Shown: one piece after another, positions 19,505 through 23,918 of the stretch
Numbering within the stretch: the first letter of the stretch is position 1
How the letters are laid out: the number at the start of each line of letters is the position of its first letter
Source: an uncultured Prevotellaceae bacterium
GTDB taxonomy: Bacteria > Bacteroidota > Bacteroidia > Bacteroidales > Muribaculaceae
Assembly: GCA_900317325.1 (NCBI GenBank)
Contig: ONGE01000009.1
Location: 61,130 to 125,129 of the forward strand
Direction: 5' to 3'
Length of the DNA: 64,000 nucleotides
Made by a program: the position numbers and the translations under genes
Notes under the pieces: model-generated
What the model was told of the DNA's origin: nothing
The model's input: only the letters and a program-made list of their open reading frames with translations
Databases searched by the model: none

Positions 19505-19610
19505 GATCTATTTAGATCAAATTAATCCCCGTTAGACCACTGGGATACATGTGAATATGCCACAAAATAAGTAATTGTTCATTTTTGATCAAATATGTTA
19601 AGAATTGATC
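19505..19610. promoter_or_regulatory. Cluster of four GATC sites upstream of dpnD
   Basis: GATC occurs at 19505, 19515, 19587 and 19607, four times in 106 bp, in the region just before the first gene of a GATC-specific restriction locus. The 19427-19654 stretch is otherwise AT-rich with no gene. Confidence 0.5.
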
Positions 19611-19654
19611 TATTCCTGTTTTTCTCACGTGTTTTCTGTTACTTTGCATATTAT

Positions 19655-19825
19655 ATGAAAAAGTACCGCATAGAGGTGACAGAAATCCTTAGCCGTATTG
19701 TTGAGATAGTGGCTGAAGATGAAGAGGAGGCCTTGCAGCACGTTAAGGCAATGTACCAAAATTGTGACCTTGTGCTAGATGCTTCGGATTATGTGAAAAC
19801 AGAATTTAGCGTTAAAGATGAATAA
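19655..19825 (+). CDS. dpnD: DpnD/PcfM family protein
   Basis: 56 residues from ATG 19655 (MKKYRIEVTEILSRIVEIVA), the usual start of the DpnD/PcfM family; a frame opening 60 bp earlier adds a Phe-rich, unconserved N-terminus and is not preferred. The family pattern I.VTE.LSR.VE...E...EA...V...Y.....VLD..D is clear. DpnD-like proteins accompany DpnI/DpnII loci and conjugative elements; their role is not settled. Here it opens the DpnII-type cluster, separated from dpnM by a structured RNA. Confidence 0.8.
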   Translation: MKKYRIEVTEILSRIVEIVAEDEEEALQHVKAMYQNCDLVLDASDYVKTEFSVKDE

Positions 19826-19861: not shown

Positions 19862-19869
19862 TAACTTTG
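19862..19869 (+). promoter_or_regulatory. -7 box TAACTTTG of the structured RNA / dpnM transcript
   Basis: TAACTTTG matches TAnnTTTG; the expected transcript start (~19876) falls immediately before the first helix at 19878. Confidence 0.65.
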
Positions 19870-19877
19870 CACCAGTC

Positions 19878-20086
19878 TTAGATACTCATCAAGACGCAAT
19901 AGACATCGTGGGAAATTAGATAGCAGTATCTAAATTCGAAGAGACTTCTAACGAAAATAGTCCGCCAAAACTAATTTATTGTTACACAGAGTCTCGGGGA
20001 ATGCGGATACGCCTATCCTGTATAGGCGTACCCCTTCCTTTCATCTCTGTGTAAAGGCATCTGTGGCGGACAGCCTTCGTTAGGGG
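19878..20086 (+). ncRNA. Highly structured leader or small RNA upstream of dpnM
   Basis: Nested perfect helices are visible. P1 is 9 bp (19878-19886 with 19925-19933). P2 is 11 bp with two G-U pairs (19945-19955 with 20076-20086). P3 is 8 bp, GTCCGCCA with TGGCGGAC (19960-19967 / 20064-20071). P4 is 10 bp, TTACACAGAG with CTCTGTGTAA (19982-19991 / 20045-20054). P4b is GGGG/CCCC (19996-19999 / 20031-20034). P5 is 9 bp, TACGCCTAT with its complement and loop CCTGT (20008-20016 / 20022-20030). P2-P5 form one compound hairpin of ~140 nt. A -7 box precedes and a terminator-like stem follows. I do not recognise it as a known RNA family. It could be an independent sRNA, an attenuating leader, or a retron-like ncRNA without a nearby reverse transcriptase. 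Confidence 0.7.
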
Positions 20087-20088
20087 AT

Positions 20089-20117
20089 GAAATGCGAAGG
20101 CGGTACGCTTTCTTTTT
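20089..20117 (+). terminator. Terminator or attenuator between the structured RNA and dpnM
   Basis: GAAA(T)GCG (20089-20096) pairs with CGCTTTC (20106-20112) around a 9-nt loop and is followed by TTTTT. It ends 30 bp before the dpnM ATG, so it could end a small RNA or attenuate the operon. Confidence 0.55.
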
Positions 20118-20146
20118 GTCCACGGCAAAATGAGGACAAAACAACG

Positions 20147-21046
20147 ATGGGTACTGAGGCAAAGCCATTCTTAAAATGGGCAGGAGGTAAAGGACAACTC
20201 ATATCACAGTTGGAGCAGCATCTGCCTAATGACCTTAACGAGCAGGAATTTTCTTATATAGAGCCATTTGTGGGAGGAGGAGCGATGTTCTTCCACATGC
20301 TCCAACGTTTCCCTAATATCAAACGTGCTGTTATCAATGACATCAATCCCTACCTGGTAACCGCCTATCGTGTCATTAAAGATGCTTCCATCGAGTTGAT
20401 AGAACGGCTCACTGAACTTGAAAAACGATATAATGCGTTGCGTGATGATGAGGCAAAGAAAGAGTTTTATCTAGCAGCGAGAACTATTTTTAATGAGAAC
20501 AACTTAGACGATATAGACCGCACCAAATACTTGATATTTCTTAATCGCACGTGTTTTAATGGTCTTTACCGAGTGAATGCTAAAGGGAAATTTAATGTGC
20601 CCTTTGGTCGTTACTTGCATCCCAAGATTTGCAATGCTGATGTTCTCAAGGCTGATAGCCGACTGCTGAATCAAGTGGAAGTAGTGATACTAAATGAGGA
20701 CTATGAGCAGACGTTGGATTACATAGGGGATGGACTCAACTTCTTCTATTTTGACCCTCCCTATCGCCCGCTTGATGCCACATCTAGTTTCAATTCCTAT
20801 GCTAAAGAGGATTTTAACGATGACGAGCAAAAAAGGCTGCGTGATTTTTGTGCAATACTCAATCAACGGCCCAATATAAAATGGATGCTCAGCAATTCAG
20901 ACTGCTCGGCAAGAAACCCCGAGGATACTTTCTTTGAAAACCTCTATCGTGATTTCAACATCAATAGAGTGCAGGCCTCTCGTGCCATTAACGCTAATCC
21001 CAGCAAACGAGGAAAACTAACCGAATTACTTATCAAAAACTTTTAA
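20147..21046 (+). CDS. dpnM: DpnM-type adenine-N6 DNA methyltransferase (GATC)
   Basis: 299 residues from ATG 20147 (MGTEAKPFLKWAGGKGQL). A frame extending 60 bp upstream is rejected because it runs through the terminator-like stem and lacks family similarity. The S-adenosylmethionine motif WAGGKG (11-16) comes first and the catalytic DPPY (203-206) later, the order of alpha-class Dam/DpnM enzymes. It should methylate adenine in GATC on double-stranded DNA and protect the host from the nuclease encoded two genes downstream. AT-rich, tight operon with 21061, 22219 and 23043. Confidence 0.92.
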   Translation: MGTEAKPFLKWAGGKGQLISQLEQHLPNDLNEQEFSYIEPFVGGGAMFFHMLQRFPNIKRAVINDINPYLVTAYRVIKDASIELIERLTELEKRYNALRDDEAKKEFYLAARTIFNENNLDDIDRTKYLIFLNRTCFNGLYRVNAKGKFNVPFGRYLHPKICNADVLKADSRLLNQVEVVILNEDYEQTLDYIGDGLNFFYFDPPYRPLDATSSFNSYAKEDFNDDEQKRLRDFCAILNQRPNIKWMLSNSDCSARNPEDTFFENLYRDFNINRVQASRAINANPSKRGKLTELLIKNF

Positions 21047-21060
21047 TCCTGTTTTTCAAT

Positions 21061-22212
21061 ATGAGAACAATAGAATTTGATATTGAAAAGAGGACACAAA
21101 ATAGCACAGAAATGAAAGCTCATAATTCTAGTATAAGTGGTGGGCTATTCATAGCCTTATATGATGAGGACTCATTGAAGTTATATCTTGACAAAGGCCT
21201 TTATGGTTTTTTGATGAAACCAGTAATGACAATTAAACCCAGTTCGCACAGTCGTTATTATGCCATTCTTGCTGACTATGCATGTAGTCGCGAGGGATCT
21301 GATGTGTTCTTCTTTCTTAAACGAAAAATCGTATATGGTGGAAAAATCTATGGCAATAAAGATATTGGTTCCTTCTTTCTAAATGGCCATACAAGTCCAT
21401 TAGGGAGGAAAGCAGACGCGAACTTGTTTTGGGACGAGTCAATTAGAAAAAGATATTTTGCAACAAGTGAACCTGGAATTTTTAAAATAAAAAAAGATGG
21501 AGGAAATAAGGCTCAACCTTTTATGTTTCAATTCGTTCAGAATAAAAACACAGGGAAGTGCATCACTTCAGATGAACTGTACTTTGAATTAGGTCACTAT
21601 CCATATCCTCTGCCATCAAATAGTATGCAAGGAATGGGATTTTGCACATTGACACCAGGTGAAGTAAAAACTCTAAATGAGCTGATAGCTAACACTACTA
21701 GCAAAATCGATTTTGAAGGTTTTGGGGAAATAGACAAAACAGGAAATGAAACTGTATTTAATAGCGGTCTCGTTTCTTTGGATGAGGATTTGGTAAATGA
21801 AGCACAATTAGAGTTCACGATTCTCTCCTCTTTAGAACCTTTCTCAGCTTTTCTGAATGAAGATTATGTATTGTGTAGGCAAGTACCAATTTCACCATTT
21901 AAACCATCAGAAATGGACAGGGCTGATATTTGTCTTTACAGCATAAATAAGCCCATTAAAAATGGCACGATCCCAAATGTCTTAATTGAACTAAAAAAGG
22001 ATAAAGCAACAAAAGCGGCATACAATCAAGTATCTCGCTACTTAAGATGGCTTGAAGCCATTACTACGAAGGAAGAATTTGAGAATGTTTCTGTTTACAT
22101 AATTGCTCCCAAAATTGGAAGAATTCACAGAAAAAGTGTAGACCTGAAGTATGAACATAAAATAGAAATGTTCTCAATTGAGAGCAGAATGTTTACAAAG
22201 CTAATAGGATAA
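21061..22212 (+). CDS. PD-(D/E)XK nuclease-like protein inserted in the DpnII locus
   Basis: 383 residues, not part of a standard DpnII system. The C-terminal ~110 residues have a NucS-like nuclease core: D289 (MDRADI), E310-L-K312 (VLIELKK) and the downstream Q323xxxY327 motif (QVSRY). The N-terminal ~200 residues (SGGLFIALYDEDSL..., EGSDVFFFLKRKIVYGGKIYGN) are alpha/beta with patterns resembling modified-base readers of the EVE/ASCH type, but this is only a visual impression. It lies 14 bp after dpnM and 6 bp before the DpnII gene, so is surely co-expressed. It may be a second, possibly modification-dependent, nuclease or an accessory specificity protein. Confidence 0.65.
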   Translation: MRTIEFDIEKRTQNSTEMKAHNSSISGGLFIALYDEDSLKLYLDKGLYGFLMKPVMTIKPSSHSRYYAILADYACSREGSDVFFFLKRKIVYGGKIYGNKDIGSFFLNGHTSPLGRKADANLFWDESIRKRYFATSEPGIFKIKKDGGNKAQPFMFQFVQNKNTGKCITSDELYFELGHYPYPLPSNSMQGMGFCTLTPGEVKTLNELIANTTSKIDFEGFGEIDKTGNETVFNSGLVSLDEDLVNEAQLEFTILSSLEPFSAFLNEDYVLCRQVPISPFKPSEMDRADICLYSINKPIKNGTIPNVLIELKKDKATKAAYNQVSRYLRWLEAITTKEEFENVSVYIIAPKIGRIHRKSVDLKYEHKIEMFSIESRMFTKLIG

Positions 22213-22218
22213 TGTATT

Positions 22219-23046
22219 ATGAATAAGAACTTTAACCTGTTTATGTCTCAACTCCAAAAGACCAACCAAACGTTGGATTTCTTTTGTGATTTTGACAAGA
22301 TTTCAGCTAATGTATCTCAAGTTGAGATGAGTCTTAACACATTAAATTACCTCATTGGTAAAGAAGATTTGTCTAAGGCTGTCGCTGAAATATGGGAGCG
22401 AGACCCCAAATCGTTTGAAGTAATGGGTATCTTAATTGCCGTGAGAGAAGAAGGCAATAAACCAGTTGTCAATAGTCAAGGAAATGTGGTTATATTGAAA
22501 AGCTACTTCACATCACCTCAAAAAGTCATTGAGTTCCTTATACAAACGGGATTAGCTAACGTGTTTAATTCCCGTCGTATTAAGAATCTTGTAGATTACG
22601 TCTTTGGCATAGAAACCGGCTTAGACACCAATGCTCGGAAAAACCGTAGTGGCCATATTATGGAAAATACTGTTGCACGTTTTTTTAGAGATAATGATAT
22701 TCAATTCCGTCAAGAAGTGTATTCGTCTGAATTTTCTGAGCTATCAGTACTAGGAACAGACGAGAAACGATTTGACTTCTATATTAACACTGATAAAAAG
22801 AAATATCTTATTGAGGTGAATTTCTATAGTGGTGGAGGAAGTAAACTAAATGAAACTGCAAGATCATATACTGAACTCGCCCCAAGAATTAATTCTGTAG
22901 AGGGTTTTGAGTTTGTTTGGATAACTGATGGTATCGGTTGGCGGTCCGCCAGAAATAAGCTTGAGGAGGCCTATAATGAAATCCCAAATGTCTATAATCT
23001 TACTACAATTATGGATTTCATCAAAATGTTGAAAGAAAGTATATGA
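22219..23046 (+). CDS. dpnB: DpnII/MboI-type restriction endonuclease
   Basis: 275 residues, close to the usual ~288 of DpnII. Family blocks are present: DFFCDFDKISANVSQVE...LN.LNYLIG near the start, FNSRRIKNLVDYVFGIETGLDTNARKNRSG in the middle, and the core KRFDFYINTDKKKYLIEVNFYSGGGSKLNETARSY. It should cut unmethylated GATC. The stop overlaps the start of dpnA by ATGA, so the two are translationally coupled. Confidence 0.92.
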   Translation: MNKNFNLFMSQLQKTNQTLDFFCDFDKISANVSQVEMSLNTLNYLIGKEDLSKAVAEIWERDPKSFEVMGILIAVREEGNKPVVNSQGNVVILKSYFTSPQKVIEFLIQTGLANVFNSRRIKNLVDYVFGIETGLDTNARKNRSGHIMENTVARFFRDNDIQFRQEVYSSEFSELSVLGTDEKRFDFYINTDKKKYLIEVNFYSGGGSKLNETARSYTELAPRINSVEGFEFVWITDGIGWRSARNKLEEAYNEIPNVYNLTTIMDFIKMLKESI

Positions 23047-23918
23047 TAACGCCTTTCTACAAATCTCCCGATCGAGCTTTCACTCTGTTGCATGGTGATT
23101 GCTTCGAGTTGATGCCAAAATTCGACTTTAAATTTGACTTGATATTTGCCGACCCTCCTTACTTTCTTTCTAATGATGGTATCAGTTATCAAGCTGGTAA
23201 AATTGTGAGTGTAAATAAAGGCGATTGGGATAAAGGTGGCTCTCCTGAACTTATCCGAGAGTTTAATCATGACTGGATAGCCCTATGCCGCGAAAAGTTA
23301 AAAGACAATGGCACAATTTGGATAAGTGGAACATACCATAATATATTTGCTGTTGCCAATAGCTTGACGGACTTGGGCTTTAAGATTCTCAATGTCATCA
23401 CTTGGGCAAAGACAAATCCACCACCCAATATCTCTTGTCGATATTTCACATATAGTACAGAATTTATTATCTGGGCTCGTAAATGGCCAAAGATACCTCA
23501 TCAATATAATTATGAAATAATGAAGTTACTGAATGGAGGAAAGCAGATGACTGATGTTTGGCGCTTACCAGCAATAGCACCATGGGAAAAATCTTGTGGA
23601 AAACATCCAACTCAGAAACCTCTGTCAATTATGACTCGTATTATACTGGCATCTACCAATCCTACTGCATGGGTTTTCGACCCATTTGCAGGATCTTCTA
23701 CAACTGGCATTGCTGCCAATTTGGTGAATCGTCGTTTTTTAGGTATTGAACGAGAATTGGAATTTGTGGAAATGAGCAGAAATAGGAGGCTAGAACTTGA
23801 TGATTATCAAACACGCATCACTTATCGCCACAAAATTAAAGACATCAATTTGAGTGAGGCTTTAGAGCCCTTAGGCATTGTTTGCGAAGAAGACGAAGCC
23901 GCGGATTTACCTTTTTAA
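23043..23918 (+). CDS. dpnA: DpnA-type adenine-N6 DNA methyltransferase
   Basis: 291 residues. DPPY (37-40) precedes the SAM motif DPFAGSSTTG (near 213-222), the beta-class order seen in DpnA. KHPTQKP precedes the SAM motif as usual. DpnA methylates GATC and can act on single-stranded DNA in the pneumococcal system, protecting incoming transforming DNA; whether that applies here is not shown. Last gene of the DpnII operon; the following ~560 bp is intergenic repeat. Confidence 0.92.
   Translation: MITPFYKSPDRAFTLLHGDCFELMPKFDFKFDLIFADPPYFLSNDGISYQAGKIVSVNKGDWDKGGSPELIREFNHDWIALCREKLKDNGTIWISGTYHNIFAVANSLTDLGFKILNVITWAKTNPPPNISCRYFTYSTEFIIWARKWPKIPHQYNYEIMKLLNGGKQMTDVWRLPAIAPWEKSCGKHPTQKPLSIMTRIILASTNPTAWVFDPFAGSSTTGIAANLVNRRFLGIERELEFVEMSRNRRLELDDYQTRITYRHKIKDINLSEALEPLGIVCEEDEAADLPF

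Follow-up and report, generated by a model that had tools for sequence, protein, structure and literature searches.

The dpnD-dpnM gap of a DpnII-type restriction-modification (R-M) locus, 321 bases long in the window (the whole 64,000-nucleotide stretch of DNA analysed here, from an uncultured Prevotellaceae bacterium), contains a conserved structured RNA that is not catalogued in Rfam. By computation we read this leader, with a probability of roughly 0.6, as a cis-acting transcription attenuator of the dpnM (R-M) operon, a two-shape RNA by which the defence genes are probably switched on and off. What the computation shows directly is a conserved promoter box, two mutually exclusive folds and conservation of the leader as far as the dpnM start.

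In the window, dpnD, dpnM, a nuclease-like gene, dpnII and a second methylase form one operon-like row (Table 1). The DpnII endonuclease together with adenine methylases of the Dam kind and the N6_N4 kind (PF04556, PF02086 and PF01555) makes this, by its gene matches, a DpnII-type R-M system, with a putative GATC specificity. The DpnII system of Streptococcus pneumoniae comprises DpnM, DpnII and a second methylase, as the window does; the window adds dpnD and the RNA leader.

Table 1. Features of the dpn locus, in window coordinates. Counts refer to the 35 loci with dpnD, leader RNA and dpnM.
Feature	Position	Strand	Remarks
GATC operator upstream of dpnD	19587..19610	.	GATC at 19587 and 19607
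dpnD −7 box TTACTTTG	19639..19646	+	Probable; by eye
dpnD	19655..19825	+	56 aa, DpnD-PcfM domain, PF14207 E 2.4e-13
Leader RNA −7 box TAACTTTG (putative promoter)	19862..19869	+	TAACTTTG in 28/35, TATCTTTG in 5/35, TACCTTTG in 2/35 loci
Hairpin H1	19875..19895	+	Sequence varies, pairing kept: duplex −9.45 vs permuted −7.42, 0/5000
P0 5′ strand CGUGG	19907..19912	+	Partner CCACG at 20120-20124 in read-through RNA; 0/5000 permutations
Hairpin H0, UUAGAUA-GCAG-UAUCUAA	19916..19933	+	7 bp; 99.6% of cells paired
Segment 1, GAGACU	19941..19946	+	Partner in fold 2 is segment 2; 68/5000 permutations equal
P1 5′ strand	19949..19955	+	3′ strand 20076-20082; two alleles
P2 5′ strand	19960..19967	+	8 bp; 3′ strand 20064-20071; 100% of cells paired, one pair A-U to G-C
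P3 5′ strand	19983..19991	+	10 bp; 3′ strand 20045-20053; 100% of cells paired, G-C to C-G change
Segment 2 (AGUCUC and P4 5′ arm)	19990..20016	+	
Segment 3 (P4 3′ arm and UUUCAUCUCU)	20025..20048	+	Partner segment 2 (P3/P4, fold 1) or segment 4 (fold 2)
Segment 4, GGGGAUGAAAUGCGAAGGCGGUACGCU (candidate terminator 3′ strand)	20083..20109	+	3:4 duplex −30.7 to −38.3 kcal/mol in 35/35
U-tract UUCUUUUUG	20110..20118	+	Immediately 3′ of segment 4; UUCUUUU 34/35, UCUUUUU 1/35
Hairpin Pt	20114..20141	+	U-tract arm 20114-20121 with GGACAAAA at 20134-20141, before dpnM AUG; 0/5000 permutations
dpnM, adenine DNA methylase	20147..21046	+	PF02086 E 2.5e-62
Inserted nuclease-like gene	21061..22212	+	PF04313 weak, under cut-off
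DpnII restriction endonuclease	22219..23046	+	PF04556 E 2.4e-98
Second DNA methylase (dpnA-like)	23043..23918	+	PF01555 E 3.6e-56

The minimum-free-energy fold of the RNA at 19870-20120 is −85.7 kcal/mol (z = −4.9; 0 of 200 shuffles equal), and the minus strand is equally structured (z = −5.6) because the element is nearly palindromic. A preliminary description of this DNA, made from the letters, had noted a −7 box in front of the structure, no coding frame that would explain it and no known RNA family, and on each of these points it has held up. The box was found as TAACTTTG, in agreement with the Bacteroidetes −7 consensus TAnnTTTG, and is the putative promoter of the leader RNA; since the locus sequences began at TTTG, only the TAnC part of the box and its position are independent evidence. 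The one recurrent frame, a candidate leader peptide, was rejected: it is shorter than 25 aa in 10 of the 35 loci and its reading and end vary among the other 25. No other frame of at least 12 aa was clearly recurrent among nine loci compared. Rfam gave no match at the gathering threshold; the best hit scored 11.9 bits (E 5.3), where the cut-off is 52. The same description had raised the possibility of a genome-wide repeat family, which is ruled out by the single copy of the element's DNA in its own genome. No DNA match to the element was found in plasmid and phage collections, and two RNA patterns gave no matches in viral contigs.

The RNA is shared by 35 distinct dpnD-RNA-dpnM loci, which belong to the window's genus or to Prevotella-type genomes and span two main DpnM clades; in each of them it lies between the promoter box and the first gene, on the dpnM strand. 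A DNA search of 397 family genomes returned 10 near-full-length copies, own genome included (286 genomes had matches at E up to 1, the rest being short pieces, many on the promoter region, which were dropped). A DpnM scan yielded 52 loci, sorted by tblastn and the covariance model into 31 with dpnD and RNA, 2 with RNA at a contig edge (L046 and L061) and 19 with neither; one of these 19 (L040) has only 171 nt upstream. The 31 and the 10 from the DNA search give 41 loci with dpnD and RNA, or 35 after removal of 6 duplicates. Within dpn loci, dpnD and the RNA thus co-occur, and the 19 dpnM loci without dpnD are also without the RNA. The dpnD-dpnM spacing is 298-324 nt, down to 58% DpnM identity, and 276 nt in a single locus whose dpnD frame is longer; columns of the leader alignment are on average 77% identical over the 35 loci. 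The covariance model found the RNA in 10 of 101 genus genomes and 11 of 397 family genomes, in the own genome alone among 395 phylum genomes, and likewise alone among 393 order genomes, two matches judged to be chance aside (L115 in G910 and L114 in G1069, weak matches in which H0 and the 3′ tail are preserved but most of what lies between them in the model is absent). When more than 40 genomes were searched, the filters were stricter and 6 to 24 candidates were scored per genome, and in the order sample of 393 genomes no Prevotella-type copy was found, though such copies exist; the large searches therefore give no frequency and show absence weakly. A complete genome with the locus is that of Prevotella communis E15-14 (L043).

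Fold 1 is a long compound hairpin, P1-P2-P3-P4, in which segments 2 and 3 are paired. The preliminary description had listed a series of helices of which the last four were nested, and these correspond to H0 followed by P1-P4 as one compound hairpin. In the 35-row alignment of regions upstream of dpnM homologues, 98.8% of the cells of fold 1 (P1-P4 and H0) are paired, and the comparison bears the hairpin out: the covariation score is 0.082 against 0.039 in shuffled alignments (0/500), 30 cells are changed on both sides against 5.4 in shuffles (0/500), and the signal is lost when the pairing partners are slid. By two other measures the fold is unexceptional: pairs changed on both sides number 6 against 3.8 (33/500) and further pair types 11 against 11.8 (440/500). 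H0, being nearly invariant across the dpn set, shows no covariation. The two alleles of P1 account for 6 changes on the best DpnM tree, and in every one of the 35 rows the two strands change together; the allele test comprises only 2 independent pairs on well-supported branches. The alleles, TAACGA and CAGACA, are scattered over the DpnM tree, CAGACA with a shorter P2/P3 loop, and their distribution looks as if leaders had been exchanged between loci.

The single hairpin of the preliminary description exists, but it has a competitor arranged like an attenuator. In fold 2, which excludes fold 1, segments 1:2 and 3:4 are paired and the 3:4 stem adjoins the U-tract. Exclusive conserved helices with one abutting a U-tract, an arrangement expected of an attenuator, are found in the dpn set, and are doubtful in a divergent copy described below. 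The 3:4 helix has 21-24 pairs and an energy of −30.7 to −38.3 kcal/mol in 35/35 loci (0/5000 permutations as good, a statistic that, like the other permutation figures on the 35 loci, ignores kinship), and the U-tract lies 21-31 nt before the dpnM start in all 35. The P4-arm part of the 3:4 helix, formed by the P4 3′ arm and the adjoining 3′ segment, reaches −21 to −24.5 kcal/mol in every locus, P4 itself reaching −18 to −21; of the 13 pairs in this part 8 are invariant, and at one position pairing fails in 14 of the 34 rows. In the loop-side half, the internal-loop 3′ side UUUCAUCUCU pairs with the P1 3′ flank, with compensation (0/5000 permutations) by changes that include UUUCAAC/GUUGAAA, UUUUAUC/GAUAAAA and UUUCACC/GGUGAA, and the segment 3 side shows 11 state changes on the DpnM tree. 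This half is free of mismatches in 16 loci, with one mismatch in 10 and two in 9, and the mismatches in these 19 of 35 loci count against the attenuator reading. Among 21,325 window stretches of 27 nt, none pairs with segment 3 better than segment 4 does; four unrelated places pair with segment 3 at −26 or better (best −29.8).

A terminator-like stem with a T-run had also been proposed before the dpnM start. Such a stem is present at 20096-20117 (1 found against a shuffle mean of 0.3), but its strength is not conserved, varying from −2.5 to −8.6 kcal/mol over the 35 loci; the conserved partner of the 3′ segment is the distant 20025-20048, and that pairing too adjoins the T-run. Unlike a textbook terminator, the 3:4 stem has a large loop. 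On the MAFFT alignment, 95.4% of the cells of fold 2 are paired, with a covariation score of 0.106 against 0.090 in shuffles (0/500); pairs changed on both sides were matched in 14/500 shuffles and further pair types are ordinary (262/500), a shortfall that may come partly from gap placement in the internal loop. The 1:2 pairing (GAGACU/AGUCUC) is weakly supported, 68/5000 permutations being as good. Run unconstrained, RNAalifold placed the 3′ segment in a helix with H0 rather than forming 3:4.

The two folds lie close in energy. Over the 35 loci, the energy of fold 2 exceeds that of fold 1 by −1.5 to +10.6 kcal/mol, on average by 5.1, against 20.9 kcal/mol when segment 4 is shuffled (30 shuffles per locus), and the energy model prefers fold 1 in 33 of 35. 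In minimum-energy traces of a growing chain for two loci (L001 and L067), 1:2 forms first and is then displaced by P3/P4 as segment 3 emerges, and 3:4 never wins at full length. With the on-like fold thus preferred by the energy model, 3:4 would prevail only with help from a factor or from kinetics. The 1:2 and 3:4 helices might also be pseudoknots that coexist with P1-P4, with P1/P2 pairing between the two loops; the adjoining P4-arm pairing and the energies make the alternative fold the simpler reading, and it is preferred here.

A divergent copy, L101, lies in a genome of another genus of the same family (G001). It matches the full-length model at 29.8 bits, with an E-value of 2.8e-4 that holds for one genome and was met in a search of 397, and was accepted on its compensatory helices, not on its score. 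H0, P1-P4 and a 3:4 helix of 13 pairs are all retained in it in other letters (P1 AGCGUAU/AUACGCU, P2 GCUCCUACCA/UGGUAGGAGC, P3 CCAAAAACGAA/UUCGUUUUUGG, H0 AAAGAA/UUUCUUU). Directly downstream of L101 lies a gene of 1667 aa, for which a combined restriction-methylase model gives 2071.6 bits. The P4-arm part of its 3:4 helix reaches −19.2 over the 13 pairs, and the loop-side half adds little (−3.3); only 5 pairs make up 1:2 (−4.6), P0 and Pt are weak (−5.6 and −3.4), the U-tract is poor (UCUUUAUG), and fold 2 lies about 17 kcal/mol above fold 1 (−42.2 vs −59.0). Owing to the poor U-tract, the weak 1:2 pairing and loop-side half and the weak fold 2, a terminator in L101 is doubtful. The 5′ strand of P2 is repeated right before the AUG (14/14 letters), so that pairing of the P2 3′ strand with the start region would also be possible (−19.1 kcal/mol). 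DpnD was not found in G001; 14 control genomes were silent too, but the same search detects DpnD in the window's own genome. Relatives of the restriction gene occur in 9 other genomes among 297, and seven of them (L105-L111) reach the gene start; no such RNA was found in their upstream parts, with one chance-level match (L109, E 0.69), and the second gene context therefore rests on one locus. MAFFT misaligned L101.

In L105, L106 and L108, inverted repeats of the ATCTCTTGTTAAGAGAT type flank the region upstream of the restriction-methylase gene and adjoin what by eye looks like the end of a tyrosine-recombinase gene, possibly marking an invertible promoter. Divergent genes that by eye are HipB-like and HipA-like (L103:10250-11796) stand beside the RNA and restriction gene of G001.

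The signal, the direction of the response and termination itself are inferred. Fold 2, with the 3:4 stem at the U-tract, would terminate transcription before dpnM and turn the operon off, and fold 1 would serve as the antiterminator and leave it on. The balance of the folds would be shifted during transcription by a signal, for which DpnD is the likeliest candidate and some other factor shared by R-M systems a possible one. The read-through RNA could then form P0 and Pt around the start region, where the partner of the U-tract arm next to the AUG is GACAAAAG, with possible added translational control. Transcription of dpnD may itself depend on how far the GATC cluster in front of it is methylated. 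An attenuator of methylase expression was among the suggestions of the preliminary description, and computation now supports it through covariation, two folds and a U-tract in 35/35 loci; its further suggestion of an RNA working with DpnD draws on their co-occurrence inside dpn loci.

The same description also considered an independent sRNA. Such an RNA would have its own promoter and terminator and act in trans or scaffold DpnD, with the dpnM promoter elsewhere. The promoter box, the U-tract and the strong fold would suit it, as would the complementarity of the P2 3′ strand to the restriction gene start in L101. However, conserved pairing (P0 and Pt) continues past the U-tract to near the dpnM AUG, which favours action in cis, and between the U-tract and the AUG no TAnnTTTG box was seen by eye; the scan covered sigma-70-type sites, and a promoter of another kind may be present. 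We hold an independent sRNA to be unlikely; a terminated short RNA would still be made by an attenuator. Were termination irrelevant, the leader could be a translational leader or a metabolite riboswitch in which Pt and P0 gate the dpnM start: Pt joins the U-tract to an A-rich stretch before the AUG, P0 bridges the whole leader, and the divergent copy does without a good U-tract in a genome in which DpnD was not found. This would leave the 3:4 helix, which ends exactly at the U-tract in 35/35 loci, without obvious purpose, and we rate it as unlikely.

The near-palindromic form of both strands would also fit a DNA-level element (a palindromic operator, a MITE or a repeat) with an incidental RNA fold. 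Its single genomic copy, its constant position and orientation with respect to dpnM in 35 loci and the use of G-U pairs in the helices make this very improbable. A retron-type ncRNA, to which the long nested arms had been likened, is hardly credible: the own genome, 94% complete, has no match to the reverse-transcriptase model RVT_1, which 3 of 14 control genomes match, and Rfam gave no match of any kind. Beyond the cis-acting attenuator itself, one might imagine a dedicated RNA switch class that has moved between unrelated R-M systems (DpnII and combined restriction-methylase), with DpnD binding RNA polymerase to set read-through and GATC methylation setting dpnD. A cell with such a switch would convert its own methylation state via RNA into a level of defence; we regard this wider scheme as improbable.

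In 29/35 loci, dpnD is preceded by three GATC sites at fixed places, with spacings of 10 and 20 bp (tolerance 3 bases); singly, the third site is kept in 35, the second in 33 and the first in 30. The 333,423 bases of L031-L082 contain 29 copies of the pattern GATC-N6-GATC-N16-GATC, against a chance figure of about 0.02 that assumes equal base frequencies. In the window, two of the three usual sites are left, the first reading GTTC, and further GATC sites lie at 19505 and 19515. The conserved cluster suggests a second, methylation-sensitive control layer. Operator and RNA appear as separate layers, since one locus (L057) has the three-site operator directly before dpnM yet neither dpnD nor the RNA. 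In another locus without dpnD and RNA (L054), two operator sites stand directly before dpnM. Three loci without dpnD (L051, L053 and L054) have a different short leader in the last ~60 nt before dpnM, which by eye reads GACCAAC.GGGTGACACC.GCTGACTAAATCA, slightly varied, before the start codon.

DpnD is also encoded in the DpnI cassette, and we know of no report of its function; if the attenuator reading is true, it would provide the first testable role for this protein. The AlphaFold2 model of DpnD (mean pLDDT 83, pTM 0.66) has a beta-beta-alpha-beta order, and Foldseek gave no significant match to it. The weak matches include the RNA-polymerase binders T7 Gp2 (4lk0, 4llg) and YkzG (4njc) at E 1.6-7.1, and models of phage 'inhibitor of host RNA polymerase' proteins match at E 0.18 (probability 0.96), 0.68 and 0.84; the best PDB match is a ribosomal subunit chain (E 1.4), and many others are unrelated or unnamed. 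Binding of RNA polymerase by DpnD is thus a lead only. No DpnD relative was found in viral contigs.

Attenuators of the trp/his type use competing 1:2, 2:3 and 3:4 helices, and the leader RNA shares with them four consecutive segments, exclusive pairing and, ahead of the first structural gene, a U-tract that comes after the last of the pairs. It differs in that no conserved leader peptide was found, in its long helices with the extra complementary strands P1 and P2 in the loops, and in belonging to a defence operon. Riboswitches and protein-binding leaders are long conserved 5′ leaders with two competing folds directly before a gene, and in all of these respects the leader RNA resembles them. 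It differs in that it has no Rfam match and, among what was searched, was found before R-M genes only.

R-M systems must balance cutting against protection, and the controls named in passages of two reviews are regulator proteins, autoregulation by the methylase, promoter methylation and antisense RNA (PMC3874152, PMC12707154). In both reviews the word riboswitch is absent, and attenuator and leader are used for other things (PMC3874152, PMC12707154). The EcoRI and Eco29kI systems have antisense RNAs transcribed from reverse promoters and so share RNA-based control of a type II R-M system (PMC3874152), whereas the leader RNA is on the coding (dpnM) strand, upstream, as a 5′ leader; as it does not lie opposite an R or M gene, it was not placed in the EcoRI-type antisense class. 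Hairpins that limit access to the translation start of a restriction gene are likewise structures in an R-M mRNA, described as translational, with no competing terminator fold named in that passage (PMC12707154). In CfrBI the promoter is methylated, and a terminating inverted-repeat structure has been suggested, untested (PMC12707154). Like the dpn locus, CfrBI has its own sites in the control region (PMC12707154); the structure suggested there is a cruciform between divergent genes, and in the dpn locus the GATC sites are spaced out in front of dpnD, with the putative RNA switch as a separate element further downstream. Our literature search, with subscription papers mostly outside its scope, found no structured leader switch of an R-M system. 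If the attenuator reading is true, the leader would represent a new RNA family and a new control layer of bacterial DNA defence.

The nuclease-like gene inserted between dpnM and dpnII is 99% identical to the copy in L031/L004, where the flanking dpnM and dpnII are 87-90% identical, which suggests that it is mobile by itself or was recently exchanged. In another locus (L036), the dpnM frame continues into the nuclease-like gene (687 aa).
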